From assembly GCA_017626095.1 (NCBI GenBank), contig JAGAJL010000043.1, positions 1 to 32,372 on the forward strand: DNA of 32,372 nt. The letters are read 5' to 3'. The notes below the pieces were generated by a model. The model made no database searches, was not told where the DNA came from, and was given only the letters and a program-made list of their open reading frames with translations. Numbering within the stretch: position 1 is the stretch's first letter; every line of letters begins with the position of its first letter. Below are positions 3,079 through 16,596 of this stretch, one piece after another. The DNA is from Lachnospiraceae bacterium. GTDB lineage: Bacteria; Bacillota; Clostridia; Lachnospirales; Lachnospiraceae. A program made the translations under genes and the position numbers.

Positions 3079-3138
3079 ATGGCAACGTCAGCACATAATA
3101 CGTAAATTATTGCGAATTAAATACTGTTACGTTGTCAT
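3079..3138. repeat. Inverted repeat between the lipoprotein and MBOAT genes
   Basis: ATGGCAACGTCAG at 3079-3091 is nearly the reverse complement of CTGTTACGTTGTCAT at 3124-3138 (one wobble and a 2-nt bulge), with a 32-nt loop. There is no T-run, so it is more likely an intercistronic RNA hairpin than an intrinsic terminator. Confidence 0.4.
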
Positions 3139-3148
3139 ATTCCCTTTT

Positions 3149-3721
3149 TTATTGATAAATTTCATCTGCTACAACAGTTGCATGTTCCAGATTTTCAATT
3201 CCTTTGATGAAGTTATCCACGTTATCTGTTTTTCCATAGGCATATACGACATAATTACCCATGGACGCAATCTTAATCTTATCCGGAAAACCGCACATAA
3301 ATTGATTGTTCAAAAATCCTTCCTTGATTTGTGTGGCAGCCTCCTCGGTACTCATTTCATTCAAATGCAACGCCACAGCAGTAAATGTATTAGCATTCAT
3401 CATGTGCATAATGGACGCAGCATCAGTTATATCCTTTTGAACTTCTTCCGGCACGAGGAAAGTATAAGTTAAGGCATCTGTATTTGTGACATCCACTTTT
3501 CCGGGTGCATTATCCACCGCATTTTCAAAGCTTCCGCCACTTGCCGGAAACTGTTCCGGCATCTGATTCCAGCCTTCCTCCAAAACGGAAACTGCATCGG
3601 GATAGGCTTTGTCCACGTCATCGGCTACGGAAGTTCCCTTTGAAGTTTGACAGCCGGTCAGCCCCAGTACCATAATGGCAGTTATTAATATTGATACTAT
3701 ACTTTTTTTCATACTTTTCAT
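3149..3721 (-). CDS. Putative lipoprotein, DUF4358-like
   Basis: The protein has 190 residues. A lysine-rich N-terminus and hydrophobic stretch end in the lipobox LTGC with the lipidated Cys at residue 24, so it is probably anchored to the outer face of the membrane. A polar linker precedes a compact domain (about 75-185) with motifs such as MMNANTFTAVAL and MGNYVVYAYGKTDNV that resemble DUF4358 proteins often found beside MBOAT/DHHW genes; this family call is moderate. The ATG at 3721 is preferred over 3739 because GGGAGA sits 6 nt upstream. The MBOAT gene follows 134 nt downstream on the same strand. Function is unknown. Confidence 0.65.
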   Translation of the reverse strand: MKSMKKSIVSILITAIMVLGLTGCQTSKGTSVADDVDKAYPDAVSVLEEGWNQMPEQFPASGGSFENAVDNAPGKVDVTNTDALTYTFLVPEEVQKDITDAASIMHMMNANTFTAVALHLNEMSTEEAATQIKEGFLNNQFMCGFPDKIKIASMGNYVVYAYGKTDNVDNFIKGIENLEHATVVADEIYQ

Positions 3722-5522: not shown

Positions 5523-7268
5523 TTAATCTCTGACCTTGATATGAACCTCTCTAAGCTGCTGCTCAGTGACCTCACCGGGAGCACCGCACATCAGATCCTG
5601 CGCATTGCCGTTCATCGGGAAAGCAATAACTTCACGGATGTTCTCTTCATTTTTGAGAAGCATAATCATACGGTCAACACCGGGTGCCATTCCGGCATGC
5701 GGAGGAGCACCAAACTGGAACGCATTGTATAATGCACCGAATTTCTGTTTCAAATCATCTTCGGTATATCCGGCAATTTCAAACGCCTTCACCATAATGT
5801 CCAGATTGTGGTTACGAACCGCACCGGAAGAAAGTTCCACACCGTTACATACAATATCGTACTGGTAAGCCAAAATCTCCAAAGGATCCATATTGTTTAA
5901 TGCATCCAGACCGCCCTGCGGCATAGAGAATGGATTGTGGGTAAAGATAATCTTCTTTTCTTCTTCATCGTATTCATACATCGGGAAGTCATTGATAAAG
6001 CAGAAACGGAATGCATTTTTCTCAAGTAAATCCAATCTGTTTGCAATTTCTGTACGAAGCTGACCTGCATAGCTAGCTGCTTTTGCTTCCTTGTCTGCGA
6101 TAAAGAAAATCGTATCACCGGCTGCAAGACCTGCAAGCTCTGCAATTTCTGTTTTCATATCATCCGGAATAAATTTATCAATCGGTCCCTTATAGGACAT
6201 ATCATCCAACACTTCCAGATAACCAAGTCCGCCCATTCCGATGGACTGTGCATATTTTAATAATTTCTCATGCTGACCTTTGGAAAGCTTTGCATGAACG
6301 TTGATGGCACGTACTGTCTTTTTATGGAAAGGCTTAAATGTACATCTTTGGAAGAAATCTGTCACATCTACAATTTCAAGCGGATTTCTAAGATCCGGTT
6401 TGTCGGTTCCATATTTTAACATTGCCTCTTTATAGCTGATAACCGGATAAGGAGCTGCTGTTACTGTTGCACCTTCGGGAGCAAATTTTTCAAAAGTTGC
6501 GGTAAGGATTTCTTCGCCTGCACGGAATACATCTTCCTGTGTTGCAAAGCTCATTTCAAAATCGAGCTGATAGAACTCGCCGGGTGAACGGTCGGCTCTC
6601 GCATCCTCATCTCTGAAACAAGGTGCAATCTGGAAATATTTATCAAAGCCGGATACCATTAAAAGCTGCTTGTACTGCTGCGGTGCCTGCGGCAATGCAT
6701 AAAATTTCCCTTTGTATTTACGGGAAGGAACGATATAGTCACGCGCACCTTCCGGAGATGATGCACAAAGAATGGGGGTCTGAATTTCCATAAATCCCAT
6801 CTCTGTCATTTTCTGACGTAAAAAGCTGATAACCTCAGAACGGAAAATGATATTATCCTTTACTTTCTTATTTCTCAAATCCAGATAGCGATATTTTAAT
6901 CTGAGATCTTCACGAATTTCTTTTGAAGTCTGCACTTCAAACGGAAGCTGTTTATATACTTTTCCTAAAATTTCAACCTTATGAGCCTCTAATTCAATGG
7001 TTCCTGTCGGAATTTTGGGATTGTAGGTTTCTTCATCACGATGTTCAACCAGACCCTCTACACTGATACAGTCTTCTTTGTTGATTCCGTCAAGCAAAGA
7101 GGTGTCTCTCATAACGACCTGCATAACACCGTACATATCTCTTAAATCGATAAACGACACACCGCCATGATCACGGATATTTTCTACCCAGCCGGCGATT
7201 TTTAATATGCTGTTCACATCTGCTTCTGTGATTTGATTCATCGTACGGTCACGATAAATGTTTGACAT
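5523..7268 (-). CDS. aspS: Aspartyl-tRNA synthetase
   Basis: At 581 residues it has the usual bacterial AspRS length. The N-terminal OB-fold anticodon domain contains GWVENIRDHGGVSFIDLRD. Class II motifs follow: motif 1 (FRSEVISFLRQKM...TPIL), motif 2 (FRDEDARADRSPGEFYQLD), a GAD insertion domain, and motif 3 (GMAPGVDRMIMLL). It charges tRNA with aspartate in the cytoplasm. The RDHG motif carries the His seen at this position in non-discriminating bacterial AspRS, where discriminating enzymes usually have Leu, so it may also make Asp-tRNA(Asn); this is inference. GGAGGAG precedes the ATG at 7268; the ATG at 7316 lies inside the leader terminator region and is rejected. Expression is controlled by the T-box leader. 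Confidence 0.97.
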   Translation of the reverse strand: MSNIYRDRTMNQITEADVNSILKIAGWVENIRDHGGVSFIDLRDMYGVMQVVMRDTSLLDGINKEDCISVEGLVEHRDEETYNPKIPTGTIELEAHKVEILGKVYKQLPFEVQTSKEIREDLRLKYRYLDLRNKKVKDNIIFRSEVISFLRQKMTEMGFMEIQTPILCASSPEGARDYIVPSRKYKGKFYALPQAPQQYKQLLMVSGFDKYFQIAPCFRDEDARADRSPGEFYQLDFEMSFATQEDVFRAGEEILTATFEKFAPEGATVTAAPYPVISYKEAMLKYGTDKPDLRNPLEIVDVTDFFQRCTFKPFHKKTVRAINVHAKLSKGQHEKLLKYAQSIGMGGLGYLEVLDDMSYKGPIDKFIPDDMKTEIAELAGLAAGDTIFFIADKEAKAASYAGQLRTEIANRLDLLEKNAFRFCFINDFPMYEYDEEEKKIIFTHNPFSMPQGGLDALNNMDPLEILAYQYDIVCNGVELSSGAVRNHNLDIMVKAFEIAGYTEDDLKQKFGALYNAFQFGAPPHAGMAPGVDRMIMLLKNEENIREVIAFPMNGNAQDLMCGAPGEVTEQQLREVHIKVRD

Positions 7269-7316
7269 TTTTGTCTCCTCCTTATAAAAACGAATTCTGT
7301 TCTGAACGGAGCGCAT

Positions 7317-7521
7317 AAAAAAAGTCCGTTCTGAAACATTGCTTGTCTCAGGACGAACATACAGTCCGCGGTGCCACCTGAATTACTGAAAACAGTCACT
7401 CAAATCCAATTGTCCTGGCTGTTGAAGTTGTTATTCACACAGATTCACTTTGCAAGGCTCTCACCATCCCTCACTCGCTGGGAACGATAAACTATGTTAC
7501 TCGTCTTCGTCATTGCCATTT
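7317..7521 (-). promoter_or_regulatory. T-box riboswitch leader of aspS
   Basis: On the minus strand the leader has the T-box AGGTGGCACCGCGG (7379-7366), then a terminator (stem 7358-7344 with 7338-7324, T-run 7323-7317). Stem I runs from GAAG (7508-7505) to CTTC (7427-7424). It has the loop-E AGTA (7501-7498) facing GAA (7436-7434), and a distal part with GATGGTGAGAGCC. The triplet placed as the specifier, after GAAT, is AAC (7432-7430), an Asn codon; a GAC occurs elsewhere but not in this position. Uncharged tRNA should stabilise the antiterminator and allow aspS transcription. T-box identity is firm; the specifier is moderate. Confidence 0.92.
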
Positions 7522-7527
7522 GATGAT

Positions 7528-7556
7528 ATTATATAAACTCTCCTAAAAAAAGTCAA
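7528..7556 (-). promoter_or_regulatory. Promoter of the aspS T-box transcript
   Basis: On the minus strand TTGACT (7556-7551), a 17-nt spacer and TATAAT (7533-7528) form a near-consensus sigma-A promoter. Transcription would start near 7521, just before Stem I of the T-box. Confidence 0.85.
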
Positions 7557-7594
7557 CGGCCGATTATTTGCCCTATTGTCTGCCTGTTACGGAC

Positions 7595-7821
7595 GTTGGA
7601 TGAAAATCGTATTCTTGCATGTTTAGGTTGCGATGTATAAGTTTATCTAAATATTTTGTAATATCATTATTTTAGCCGGACGCACCGATGCACCCGGACA
7701 TCCATGTCCGACGTGCACCTTTCGCAGCATCCTTGCTGCTCATTGCTGAAACTGAACAAAATATTAAGATGAGCTAATACATCTTCACAATAAACATTCA
7801 AGAATACGATTTACATCCAAC
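7595..7821. repeat. Large hairpin element, copy A (core in + orientation)
   Basis: Arms 7595-7659 and 7756-7821 are about 65 nt each and largely complementary with a few internal loops; their ends are GTTGGATG and CATCCAAC. The 96-nt core holds two small hairpins with 2-4 nt at their palindrome centres, CGGACATCCATGTCCG (7695-7710) and GCAGCATCCTTGCTGC (7724-7739). They are separated by GTGCACCTTTC, and TGCAC/GTGCA pairs outside the first. Copy B has the same architecture and alignable sequence in inverted orientation. No target-site duplication or coding frame is evident. It may be a structured RNA gene or a non-autonomous mobile element. The 166-nt spacer between the copies (7822-7987) has no recognisable gene. 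Confidence 0.8.
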
Positions 7822-7948
7822 TGGGTATCGAAAGAAATAGTGAGATACAAAACAAGCGTGTCCATAAACGACGAAAAAGCTATCAGAAATAGTCGAAAGC
7901 GTGGTTTGAGGTACGATTGATCCGGTAGTGAATAGACAAAACGATTAT

Positions 7949-7977
7949 TTACTTATTATATACACTTCCTTTATAAT
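7949..7977 (+). promoter_or_regulatory. Possible promoter before element copy B and the ABC-F gene
   Basis: TATAAT at 7972-7977 is a perfect -10 box; a 17-nt spacer puts the poor -35 TTACTT at 7949-7954. The predicted start, near 7984, would place all of element copy B in the 5' leader of the ABC-F mRNA. The weak -35 keeps confidence low. Confidence 0.4.
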
Positions 7978-7987
7978 TATAACGGTT

Positions 7988-8211
7988 TGTGAGAAAATGG
8001 TATCTTCCCTGTCTATTTAGCGGTAGTTGTCCGGTTTATCTTTATAATCCGATTCAGCTATCAGCACTTCGCGACATGGATGTCGCGAAAGGTGCATCGA
8101 GGCAGGATGCCGATTTTGCACCGTGTGCGTCAACTCACCTAAACTTTTCTCGGATTATTTAGATAAACAGGACAACGGACGTATAGACAGGGAAGATATC
8201 ATTTTCTTACA
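7988..8211. repeat. Large hairpin element, copy B (core in - orientation)
   Basis: Arms 7988-8052 and 8150-8211 are complementary over most of their length and enclose a 97-nt core. On the + strand the core has hairpins CGCGACATGGATGTCGCG (8070-8087) and GGCAGGATGCC (8101-8111), separated by AAAGGTGCATCGA. Reverse-complemented, it aligns with copy A through GACGCAC, GCACCTTTCGC, TGCTGA and the inner arm GTTTATCTAAATA, while stem bases differ with pairing kept. The right arm ends 34 nt before the ABC-F start codon. Confidence 0.8.
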
Positions 8212-8245
8212 AGGTAAAATCAACAGCCCCAAAAGGAGAATCCCT

Positions 8246-9802
8246 ATGATACTTGAAGTAACAAATTTAAGCCACGGTTTCGGAGACCGCGCTATTTTTG
8301 ATAATGTGTCTTTTAGGTTGCTTAAAGGCGAACATATCGGATTAGTCGGTGCTAATGGTGAAGGCAAATCCACTTTTATGAATATTATTACCGGTTCACT
8401 GCCACCGGATGAAGGAAAAGTGGTCTGGGCAAAAAATGCAAAAATCGGCTATCTGGATCAGCACACAGTCTTGGAAAAAGGCATGACCATAGGCGATGTA
8501 TTAAAAAGTGCTTTTGCCAGACTTTTCGATATGGAAGCGCGAATTACAGAGATTTGTGACCAGATGTCCGGTGATATCGATGAAAACACCATGAACGAAC
8601 TGTTGGAAGAAATGGGTTTACTGCAGGACTTATTGGACAGCCATGATTTCTATGTCATAGATGCCAAGGTTGAGGAAGTAGCCAGAGCTTTTGATTTGTT
8701 GCCACTTGGTCTTGATAAAGATGTTTCGGAGCTTAGCGGCGGTCAAAGAACCAAAGTATTACTTGCAAAGTTGCTTTTAGAAAAGCCGGAAATATTATTA
8801 CTGGACGAACCCACCAACTATCTGGATGCTCATCATATTGAATGGTTAAAGCGGTATTTACAGGAATACGAAAATGCTTTTATCCTGATTTCCCATGATA
8901 TCCCATTTTTGAATTCAGTAGTTAACATAATTTACCACATGGAGAACTGTGCCCTGGACCGCTATGTGGGAGACTATGATAAATTTATGGAAGTATATGC
9001 CGTAAAGAAAAGCCAGAAAGAGGCCGCATACAAAAAGCAACAGCAGGAAATTAAAGAGCTAAAGGATTTTGTAGCCAGAAACAAGGCGCGTGTTGCTACA
9101 AGAAACATGGCCATGTCGCGTCAGAAAAAACTGGATAAAATGGATATTATAGAATTGGATTATGAAAAGCCAAAACCGGAATTTTATTTTAAAGAAGCCA
9201 GAACACCTGGCAAGACTATCTTTGAGACCACGGATTTAGTTATCGGATATGACAAGATGGCTCCTCTTTCCAAGCCCATCAACCTACGCATGGAACGTGG
9301 TGAAAAAATTGCAATCATCGGAACCAATGGAATTGGAAAAACAACATTTTTAAAGAGTGTATTGGGACTTATTCCTTCTTTATCGGGCACAGCACAACTC
9401 GGAGACTACCTATATCCCGGTTACTTTGAACAGGAAGTAAATACCGGAAACAATTCCTGTATTGAAGAAATATGGGAAACATTTCCCGGTTTTACGCAAT
9501 ATGAAGTGCGAAGTGCTTTGGCAAAATGTGGTCTGACCACCAAGCACATCGAAAGCAAGGTCAAAGTACTATCCGGTGGCGAACAGGCAAAAGTTAGGCT
9601 ATGCAAACTGCTTAATAAAGAAACCAATGTTCTCTTATTGGATGAGCCTACCAACCACTTGGATGTCGATGCAAAGGAAGAATTAAAAAGAGCCCTCACT
9701 TCATATAAGGGCTCCATCCTGTTGGTATGTCATGAACCGGATTTCTATGACGGTCTGGTAGATAGAATCTGGAATCTGGAAGAATATTCAACTTTATCAT
9801 AG
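8246..9802 (+). CDS. ABC-F family ATPase (duplicated ABC domains, no membrane part)
   Basis: The protein has 518 residues and two ABC domains in tandem. Domain 1 has Walker A GANGEGKS at residues 35-42, signature LSGGQ at about 163 and Walker B LLLDEPTN. Domain 2 has Walker A GTNGIGKT at about 359, signature LSGGEQ at about 442 and LLLDEPTNHLD. A charged, Lys/Gln-rich interdomain linker lies between, as in ABC-F proteins that act on the ribosomal E site (YbiT/YkpA-like housekeeping factors or antibiotic-resistance proteins). No transmembrane segment is present. Sequence alone does not separate the subgroups. The frame opens upstream at 8123, but AAGGAG before the ATG at 8246 and the family N-terminus MILEVTNLSHGFG fix the start. 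Its leader probably contains element copy B. Confidence 0.92.
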   Translation: MILEVTNLSHGFGDRAIFDNVSFRLLKGEHIGLVGANGEGKSTFMNIITGSLPPDEGKVVWAKNAKIGYLDQHTVLEKGMTIGDVLKSAFARLFDMEARITEICDQMSGDIDENTMNELLEEMGLLQDLLDSHDFYVIDAKVEEVARAFDLLPLGLDKDVSELSGGQRTKVLLAKLLLEKPEILLLDEPTNYLDAHHIEWLKRYLQEYENAFILISHDIPFLNSVVNIIYHMENCALDRYVGDYDKFMEVYAVKKSQKEAAYKKQQQEIKELKDFVARNKARVATRNMAMSRQKKLDKMDIIELDYEKPKPEFYFKEARTPGKTIFETTDLVIGYDKMAPLSKPINLRMERGEKIAIIGTNGIGKTTFLKSVLGLIPSLSGTAQLGDYLYPGYFEQEVNTGNNSCIEEIWETFPGFTQYEVRSALAKCGLTTKHIESKVKVLSGGEQAKVRLCKLLNKETNVLLLDEPTNHLDVDAKEELKRALTSYKGSILLVCHEPDFYDGLVDRIWNLEEYSTLS

Positions 9803-13831: not shown

Positions 13832-13920
13832 TGTTTATTCCTTCTTTCTATTTTATATTAAGGTTAATCCTTATTATTTTCATATTATGATACTGAAATC
13901 ATCAATAGTTTTTTCCATAA

Positions 13921-14008
13921 TACCAAGGATTGCTACGCACTTTGTGCTCTCGCAATCCTAAAACATTCGAAATCCGCCCTAATCGGGCCACTTTCTTTGA
14001 CCCTGGTA
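13921..14008. repeat. Multi-hairpin repeat-like element
   Basis: Outer ends TACCAAGG (13921-13928) and CCCTGGTA (14001-14008) are almost complementary. Inside are a strong hairpin, GGATTGC (13927-13933) with GCAATCC (13952-13958) and an inner GCAC/GTGC, and a second hairpin GCCC/GGGC around 13976-13988. The element ends six bases before the next gene's stop codon. The compact nested form suggests a dispersed intergenic repeat; only one copy is in the window. Confidence 0.55.
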
Positions 14009-14013
14009 CCATA

Positions 14014-14547
14014 TTATTTCAATTCCGTCCTGCAGAAATAACAGTCCTTCCCGCTATAATAATGATCCGGAACCAGATTTTCCGCACCGCAATATGGACA
14101 GTATTTGATTTTCATACCACGTGGAATGGGGTCTCCCAACAGATATCTTCCACCAACTTCATTTCCACCGTATTTCTGGTTAACGCGTTCCATCTCTTCC
14201 CGTTTTTCTTTTGCATGCTCTATCTGGTCCATTCTTGCTTTCTTTTGCAGATAATCGGTAGTGGATGTTTTTTGAACCTTTGATTTTGTTTCCTGTACCG
14301 GTTGTTTTACTGCCTGCCCCGCTTGCTTTACTCCATGACCTGACTGTTTTATTTCCTGTCTTGGCGATACCGTCTTCTGTGATGGCTGGGCAGATAAGGT
14401 TTGAACCTGACTTGCTCTTTTCTGATCATATCGTTTTTGAAGTTCCTGATACTGCTTATCATAATTACTTTTTTTGCCTGCTTTATTTGCTTTACTGATT
14501 GTAACAACAATAAAGATCAAAAAAATATAAAATATCAAAGCACTCAT
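14014..14547 (-). CDS. Membrane-anchored C-terminal zinc-ribbon protein, unknown
   Basis: The protein has 177 residues. An N-terminal membrane segment (2-19, ALIFYIFLIFIVVTIS) is followed by a Lys/Gln-rich stretch and a low-complexity linker with repeated VKQ units (about 55-95). A coiled, charged helix (about 100-125) leads to a C-terminal zinc-ribbon-like CPYCGA...CYFC (about 150-174). I do not recognise a named family. AAGGGG lies upstream of the ATG. It starts 20 nt after holA and is probably cotranscribed with it. The linker is unusually repetitive, and its DNA is also repeat-like. Confidence 0.65.
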   Translation of the reverse strand: MSALIFYIFLIFIVVTISKANKAGKKSNYDKQYQELQKRYDQKRASQVQTLSAQPSQKTVSPRQEIKQSGHGVKQAGQAVKQPVQETKSKVQKTSTTDYLQKKARMDQIEHAKEKREEMERVNQKYGGNEVGGRYLLGDPIPRGMKIKYCPYCGAENLVPDHYYSGKDCYFCRTELK

Positions 14548-15699: not shown

Positions 15700-16596
15700 T
15701 TAGTATCCCATCATCTCAAGCTCTTTTTCAAACATATCTAACGAATCTGCTTTTGCAGCTTTAATCGTTAATTGCATGACATCTTCAAGCTCATTTATTG
15801 ATGAGATTCTACCCTTTAGATTATCGGAAATAGGGGCAATTTCACATAGCAAATCCACAAGAACAGCTTTTACATTTACTAATAATTCTGCCTTTCCTTG
15901 TTCTAATCCTTCTGCCTTGCCGGCGTTATATTCTTCTTTCATTAATTCTTCAATTAACATATGACGCCTCCCCATTTCCCGATCAAACTTGATTTTTTCA
16001 ACAGATTTCTGCAAGCGCTTCACGAACTCATCGGAATAATCATTTTGACTTTCCTCAAGCTCTGCACCTACATATTTCAGAAAATTCACGAGATCTTTTG
16101 ATATCTCGTCTTCATTTGTTCCAACCGTACTTAAAAATATGGTATAGCTCCCATCATCATAATGATAATCTCTGTCTTCTTCAATCATCTGACATCTGGT
16201 ATACTTATACTTTCCCAGTCCGATTGGATCATAATCACATATGAATATAACATACGTTTCCGGCAATTGCTCATAATCAATTCCCGTACTCAATAACTCC
16301 ATATCTATCTGACTGTGATAGTATCTGGATCTTTTTAATATCTCTGTGTTTGCGACCTGCATCTCCACATTAAAATGCCGGTTTTTATCATCTTTTAAGT
16401 ATACATCCAGTCGTATTCCCCTATATTCCGGATTATAAACGATACTCTTTTCATATGATATCTCTACATGGTCTACCTGAATGTCGAGTGCTCTTTCAAT
16501 GACTCCTTTGGCGTTTTCTTCATCCAGCATAACCGCTGCAAACATAAAGTTATCTTTGAATGTCAATTCCTGTAATGTTTTTCTTCTTTTATTCAA
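15700..16596 (-). CDS. Rpn-family PD-(D/E)XK nuclease / putative transposase
   Basis: The protein has 298 residues. It begins with LTFKDNFMFAAVMLDEENAKGVIERAL, the typical Rpn/PDDEXK_2 opening. The nuclease core has Asp in RGIRLDVYLKD and Glu-Met-Gln in HFNVEMQVAN (about 63-80), then KRSRYYHSQIDMELLSTG and ETYVIFICDYDP. The C-terminus holds an AGKAEGLEQGKAEL coiled segment often seen in this family. Rpn proteins promote RecA-independent recombination and are spread widely as accessory genes. The start is TTG: AAGGAGG lies seven bases upstream and no ATG fits. It has its own near-perfect promoter at 16638-16667. Confidence 0.88.
   Translation of the reverse strand: MNKRRKTLQELTFKDNFMFAAVMLDEENAKGVIERALDIQVDHVEISYEKSIVYNPEYRGIRLDVYLKDDKNRHFNVEMQVANTEILKRSRYYHSQIDMELLSTGIDYEQLPETYVIFICDYDPIGLGKYKYTRCQMIEEDRDYHYDDGSYTIFLSTVGTNEDEISKDLVNFLKYVGAELEESQNDYSDEFVKRLQKSVEKIKFDREMGRRHMLIEELMKEEYNAGKAEGLEQGKAELLVNVKAVLVDLLCEIAPISDNLKGRISSINELEDVMQLTIKAAKADSLDMFEKELEMMGY

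Follow-up and report, generated by a model that had tools for sequence, protein, structure and literature searches.

Two inverted hairpins between aspS and an ABC-F-type gene

The whole stretch of DNA that was analysed, referred to here as the window, comprises 32,372 nucleotides of a Lachnospiraceae contig. Between aspS and a gene of ABC-F type it carries two homologous hairpins of around 227 nt, mutually inverted, which we call copies A and B (Table 1). The outer arms are 94% complementary in copy A and 93% in copy B, with values of 86% and 89% for the respective inner arms, and the cores of the two copies are 78% complementary to each other across 36 nt. Compared with shuffled sequences, copy B folded as single-strand DNA gave z = -12.1, and copy A folded as RNA gave z = -10.7. 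The loops read AAGGAU and AUGGAU in copy A, and AUGGAU and a shortened AGGAU in copy B. The arm complementarity, the folds and the matches to one Rfam family on opposite strands confirm the pair of large inverted homologous hairpins that a previous sequence-only reading had described.

Table 1. Features of the hairpin locus and positions in the window.
Feature	Position	Strand	Remarks
aspS	5523-7316	minus	gene on the copy-A side of the hairpin pair
Copy A, full element	7593..7822	minus	~31-bp outer stem, inner stem, two GGA-loop hairpins; type I
Outer arm of copy A	7595..7625		pairs with 7791-7821; beyond the Rfam model
RF01731 (TwoAYGGAY) match in copy A	7625..7790	minus	90.6 bits, full model
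Outer arm of copy A, partner	7791..7821		pairs with 7595-7625
Spacer between A and B	7822..7986		putative deletion remnant
Copy B, full element	7987..8215	plus	30-bp outer stem, inner stem, two hairpins; type II
RF01731 (TwoAYGGAY) match in copy B	8019..8183	plus	94.3 bits, full model
3' outer arm of copy B	8183..8212		partner of 7987-8016
ABC-F-type gene	ATG at 8246	plus	gene on the copy-B side of the hairpin pair

A consensus scan of positions 7280-8320 found three promoter signals, against 2.8 expected from shuffles. Between copy A and aspS, a T-box leader of this gene was matched at 7346-7522 (minus strand) with 72.3 bits, under the gathering score of 93. Other matches in the window correspond to a Clostridiales-1 RNA (RF01699) at 13918-14059 (minus, 55.4 bits) and, distant from the hairpins, to the gene of a PD-(D/E)XK nuclease family transposase (PF12784) at 15700-16596 (minus).

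The hairpins are members of the TwoAYGGAY family

Both copies match Rfam family RF01731, named TwoAYGGAY, over positions 1-168 of the 168 in the model, with scores well over the gathering score of 43, and they are members of this family. The sequence-only reading had known of no described family with this form, and was therefore mistaken in this, as TwoAYGGAY was already listed by Weinberg et al. in 2010 (PMC2864571). That work rates the family as probably RNA, and as probably neither cis-regulatory nor a riboswitch. Rfam's own tag for it is Cis-reg. It was proposed as a CsrA binder in 2014 (PMC4333381), and two additional covarying pairs were given to it in Rfam 15 (PMC11701678).

The architecture was studied on 116 copies taken from the fetched loci and clustered to 58 non-redundant ones (85% identity over 190 nt). 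The element continues past the Rfam model into an outer stem of 33 positions on average, whose cells in the 58 copies comprise 1781 Watson-Crick pairs, 33 G-U, 28 A-C, 53 other mismatches and 28 gaps. The 5' arms of these copies have a mean identity to each other of 31%, in agreement with the earlier observation that divergence is greatest in the arms. GGA was present in 100 of the 115 hairpin loops detected, and a T-T mismatch inside the element is conserved in 48 of the 58 copies. The downstream flanks are rich in C and poor in G (0.30 C, 0.15 G; upstream flanks, 0.20 C and 0.19 G). In several copies from three genomes (G002, G005 and G006; our labels for genomes, contigs and loci begin with G, C and L) complementarity seems, by eye, to continue into the flanks past the arm, which may thus be longer than the 40-nt cut suggests. 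The sequence GTCC near the 3' end was rejected as a general signal, being found in 10 of the 58 copies only.

Pairing is kept through this divergence, as had been proposed from the two copies alone. In an alignment of 31 copies selected for diversity (A1), with the structure taken from copy B, 73.1% of the cells were paired, against 52.0% in shuffles, and the covariation score was 0.518, against 0.180 in shuffles, none of 500 being as high; structures slid along the alignment reached 0.235 at most. Of the 25 pairs predicted by RNAalifold, 23 show compensatory changes. Between orthologues, 33 paired double changes were found against 1.1 expected, in pairwise and hence not independent comparisons, and 18 when each pair was counted once.

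Dispersed copies and divergent doublets

The window's genome has 29 matches to the family. Of 41 genomes searched, 10 carry at least one, namely eight of the nine of the window's genus plus G012 and G016 from two other genera. Altogether 163 matches were counted, 150 of them listed, with filters stricter than usual that lost weak matches. A 99% complete genome, G003, holds 24 copies with a best score of 111.8 bits, and one degenerate core pattern had no exact match among viral contigs.

Neighbouring copies adopt a preferred arrangement. Among the 150 matches listed, 31 of the 32 neighbours less than 1.5 kb apart are divergent, one is tandem and none convergent, and the distance between the Rfam matches of the divergent pairs listed goes from 108 to 1315 nt. 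When the fetched loci were grouped by orthology, 19 had a divergent pair, one of these having also a tandem neighbour, and none had a convergent pair.

The copies were assigned to types I and II by their second hairpin, counting one species per locus. In the window's clade (G000, G003 and G008) a type I copy is joined to a type II copy at 12 of 14 paired loci, which are all the typable ones (permutation p 0.0016 for the 12 typed loci). The two loci outside the typing rule are L079/L066, I + I-like by eye, and L071, whose two copies are nearly identical and belong to another subtype. One site holds type II in G000 (L040) and type I in G008 (L064), the doublet being II + I in the former and I + I in the latter; as one species is counted per locus, L064 is outside the 12 of 14. 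Among the doublets outside the window's clade, none of six could be typed on both ends by the rule. Two copies of G008 (L060_5764 and L080_2830) look mosaic, with a type I-like first hairpin and a type II-like second one, which hints at recombination between types.

Compared with the remaining copies fetched from their genome, partners are more alike in G016 (two loci), G004 and G002, and no more alike in G006 (two loci); in G000, G003 and G008 pooled, core similarity is 0.70 for partners and 0.69 for non-partners. Both copies of the doublets at L071 and L072 carry nearly identical arms, and in the latter, a locus of G004, the two full copies have their arms in common with a mini-hairpin that lacks the core. 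The contrast that had been drawn with ordinary MITEs thus holds in part: arms do diverge more than cores, but the partners at these two loci share their arms, and the copies are dispersed, loss-prone repeats.

TwoAYGGAY is a family already known in Rfam, but for its arrangement here we found no description in the literature searched. This search, to which most subscription papers were closed, returned no description of the doublets, and the accessible literature on TwoAYGGAY gave no mention of the type I/II pairing or of turnover at sites. Likewise, no description was found of the ~33-bp outer stem omitted from the Rfam model, of the variation of spacers from locus to locus or of the regulator gene end in the window's spacer.

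Spacers and turnover at the sites

Apart from matches of 17-20 nt, the spacers of 26 doublets match each other between orthologous loci only. The same copies, A and B, are present in G003 at the window locus, with 2565 nt between the Rfam matches versus 228 nt in the window. In G003 an arylamine N-acetyltransferase gene ends beside A, and a GntR/aminotransferase (MocR-like) gene ends beside B. Positions 7873-8019 of the window, that is the end of the spacer and the start of copy B, align at 89.8% identity with the final codons of this MocR-like gene and its 3' flank, so the spacer of the window is best read, from this alignment, as a deletion remnant holding the end of the deleted regulator gene, with a stop codon at 7907-7909. 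At the protein level, the match of the remnant has an E value of 0.52 in the window, where it is too short for significance, and a weak one of 0.006 in G008.

Other sites differ between genomes mostly by deletion, and no clean filled/empty pair that could reveal a target duplication was found among the sites examined. At the window locus itself, G008 has around 500 nt with a small ORF in place of copy B, and in G001 (L076) a single copy, its core of type II, stands where the window has the type I copy A. One copy is reduced to an arm footprint at L086, and at L084 and L172 the core is gone while parts of the arms are kept. Copy A and the spacer are absent from L087 and L049, where B is present; loss of A is likelier here, though its absence could be ancestral. 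At the site of L082, G000 and G003 retain arm footprints only, which represent losses and no fresh gain.

The genes enclosed are diverse. The spacer of L072 encodes an Rce1-like (CPBP-type) protease (PF02517), and that of L071 an ORF named Rpn-like by resemblance, with no Pfam match, accompanied in the G008 version (L118) by a Sel1-repeat protein. The 524-nt spacer of L045/L070, 98.7% identical between G000 and G003, resembles a degenerate tandem array (off-register matches of ~76-83%). Two TTTCACGTGAAA sites, which we take to be a parS-like motif, lie 50 nt apart at 3119 and 3169 in the doublet spacer of L073 (G006, C56), and this sequence is in no other fetched locus outside the L073 region. 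In G001 (C37, L114), the site of the right copy of L071 shows at ~3640-3710 a different, coreless short palindrome (ACTTAGCCGAACG...CGTTCGGCTAAGT).

Strand preference of the fold

The G-U pairs were compared with the A-C mispairs in order to tell which strand pairs. In the pooled copies the G-U:A-C counts were 33:28 in the outer stem and 116:98 in the core, the latter blurred by misaligned cells, against 41:5 in T-box leaders with curated structure (7 of 10 alignments) and 45:18 in intrinsic terminators. The conclusion first drawn from the pool, that lack of a G-U excess meant DNA, was withdrawn after the counts were split by clade. In the window's clade the static count was 34 G-U to 14 A-C, versus 30 to 41 in the other genomes, and among new mismatches between orthologues of the window's clade it was 40 to 12 (p 0.0001). 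On these counts it is seemingly the annotated strand that folds in this clade, as RNA or as single-stranded DNA. In the copies from G002 and G005 (L089, L102, L103, L111-L113) one G-U was seen for 12 A-C, small numbers that look as if the opposite strand folded. G-U accounts for ~2% of pairs in the outer stem and ~5% in the core, versus 13% in T-boxes. A generic stem finder gave 44:45 for TwoAYGGAY, 15:10 for T-boxes and 28:19 for random windows, and consequently did not separate RNA from background. As a test of RNA against DNA, the wobble counts are mixed.

A REPIN-like doublet as the preferred reading

Repeats, doublets, type I + II pairing at most paired loci of the window's clade, paired changes, arm footprints, differences at the same site between related species and genes or a gene remnant in some spacers are what was observed, and they lead us to prefer, tentatively, a reading that we consider quite possible, if still short of probable: a non-autonomous doublet similar to REPINs, whose folded single strand would be recognised by an enzyme. 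The pair would represent a single unit of a palindromic repeat, dispersed and non-autonomous, that has TwoAYGGAY elements at both ends, hairpins of ~225 nt placed back to back around a spacer without fixed sequence. During copying, a trans-acting enzyme or host protein would recognise the folded single strand, with its two GGA-loop hairpins and long stem, in a way that may be akin to that of REP hairpins in REPINs. The arms would then be free to drift provided that pairing persists, and many of the solitary copies would be decaying remnants. Mobility of the doublet is suggested by the dispersal and turnover of the copies. With respect to the enzyme, the ORFs within 3 kb of the copies gave no recurring partner gene, as only common ABC-ATPase and response-regulator families appear at three or more loci. 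A Y1 transposase (PF01797) was rejected as a requirement, since no match was found in the carriers G000 (87% complete), G004 (97%) and G008 (100%); the other seven carriers have matches, some of them fragmentary.

A stronger form of this proposal, which we regard as rather unlikely, is that TwoAYGGAY is primarily not an RNA and would form the ends of a mobile DNA of a new class, two-ended and recognised by its structure. Its units, of type I + II back to back in one clade, would be copied by a non-Y1 enzyme, and arm pairing would be kept either through selection acting on the folded strand or through copying from arm to arm. If true, a family filed as RNA in a public library has been misread, and a REPIN-like system independent of Y1 transposase exists.

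An unlikely explanation is that of a cis-acting RNA, a 3'-UTR or leader element for the termination, processing or stability of flanking or once-enclosed genes. It agrees with the Rfam tag, with the base composition of the downstream flanks, with the G-U bias of one clade and with the terminator-like hairpins with a T run that adjoin several copies by eye, and in G003 copies A and B closely follow, in sense orientation, the N-acetyltransferase gene and the MocR-like gene, respectively. Nevertheless, the flanking genes run in varying directions, with many copies lying antisense to their nearest ORF; the hairpins of the window locus remain though the spacer genes are gone; the G-U share is well under that of T-boxes; and the rating by Weinberg et al. 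(PMC2864571) is probably not cis-regulatory.

We give a smaller chance to a DNA cruciform or single-strand hairpin that is not mobile now and would be bound by a host protein of nucleoid, replication or repair. Such a site would account for the strand-neutral mismatches of the pool, so different from those of T-boxes and terminators, and for the very strong DNA fold of copy B, but not for the excess of G-U over A-C in the window's clade, both static and new, and the core part of the pooled count is the one blurred by misalignment.

Similarly improbable is that the elements are transcribed outward as CsrA-sequestering RNAs, two GGA loops binding a CsrA dimer as in the gammaproteobacterial CsrB/RsmZ, which is the 2014 proposal (PMC4333381). 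The frequency of GGA in the loops and the G-U excess among new mismatches in the window's clade are as expected of such an RNA, and csrA is over the cut-off in nine of 10 carriers versus 18 of 31 non-carriers. The idea is weakened by G003, which has its 24 copies with no csrA or fliW match, and by G016, where there are two csrA matches and yet nine of 12 loops lack GGA; in addition, promoter signals around the pair are not above shuffles. CsrA binding may take place in some species, but it does not explain the persistence of the structure, the divergent doublets, the type pairing or the turnover at sites. Finally, a chance origin of the hairpins is ruled out by the arm complementarity and by the folds and covariation compared with shuffles.

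Since 2010 TwoAYGGAY has been regarded as a structured RNA whose function is unexplained, with CsrA binding as the one published idea found. The doublet rule, the free-sequence outer stem, the site turnover and the csrA-less carrier provide a different and testable frame for the family, in which an enzyme or host protein would recognise the folded unit and single copies are possible remnants.

Comparison with known systems

The elements coincide with TwoAYGGAY as modelled in RF01731 in their full-length matches, the two GGA-loop hairpins and the covarying stems, and differ in that the Rfam model stops inside the element, the ~33-bp outer stem of free sequence lying beyond. With CsrA-binding RNAs of the CsrB/RsmZ type they share paired hairpin loops with GGA; unlike these, they are multi-copy repeats, kept in a genome with no csrA match and with GGA mostly lost in G016.

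In integrons, attC sites lie in tandem behind cassettes, conserve structure over sequence and act as a folded strand. TwoAYGGAY resembles them in the structure kept over sequence and in the proposed folded strand, whereas its copies are divergent instead of tandem. No common RYYYAAC 5' end was seen by eye in the flanks of the copies listed. OTH-22-1 (PMC8632094) is cited along with the attC comparison.

The likeness that we propose is to REPIN/BIME elements, the REP doublets copied by RAYT (TnpA-REP). According to two papers, REPINs are two inverted palindromes with a diverse spacer, singlets are usually decaying remnants, the sequence is species-specific while the structure is common, and REP units measure 21-65 nt (PMC8049555, PMC6006769). 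Our literature search returned no paper on REPIN/RAYT in Firmicutes. A GTAG/GTGG tetranucleotide where the hairpin begins, at its foot, is a further trait of REPIN/BIME elements. The TwoAYGGAY doublets are comparable in their inverted palindromes around a diverse spacer, in their putatively decaying singlets and in a common structure with sequence particular to the species; they depart from REPINs in that each end has ~225 nt and two inner hairpins, that three carrier genomes have no Y1 match, and that no gene was found flanked by TwoAYGGAY repeats in the manner of a REPtron. Because of the unit size and the absence of Y1 matches from those three carriers we do not file the doublet as a REPIN, although by analogy it would work like one.
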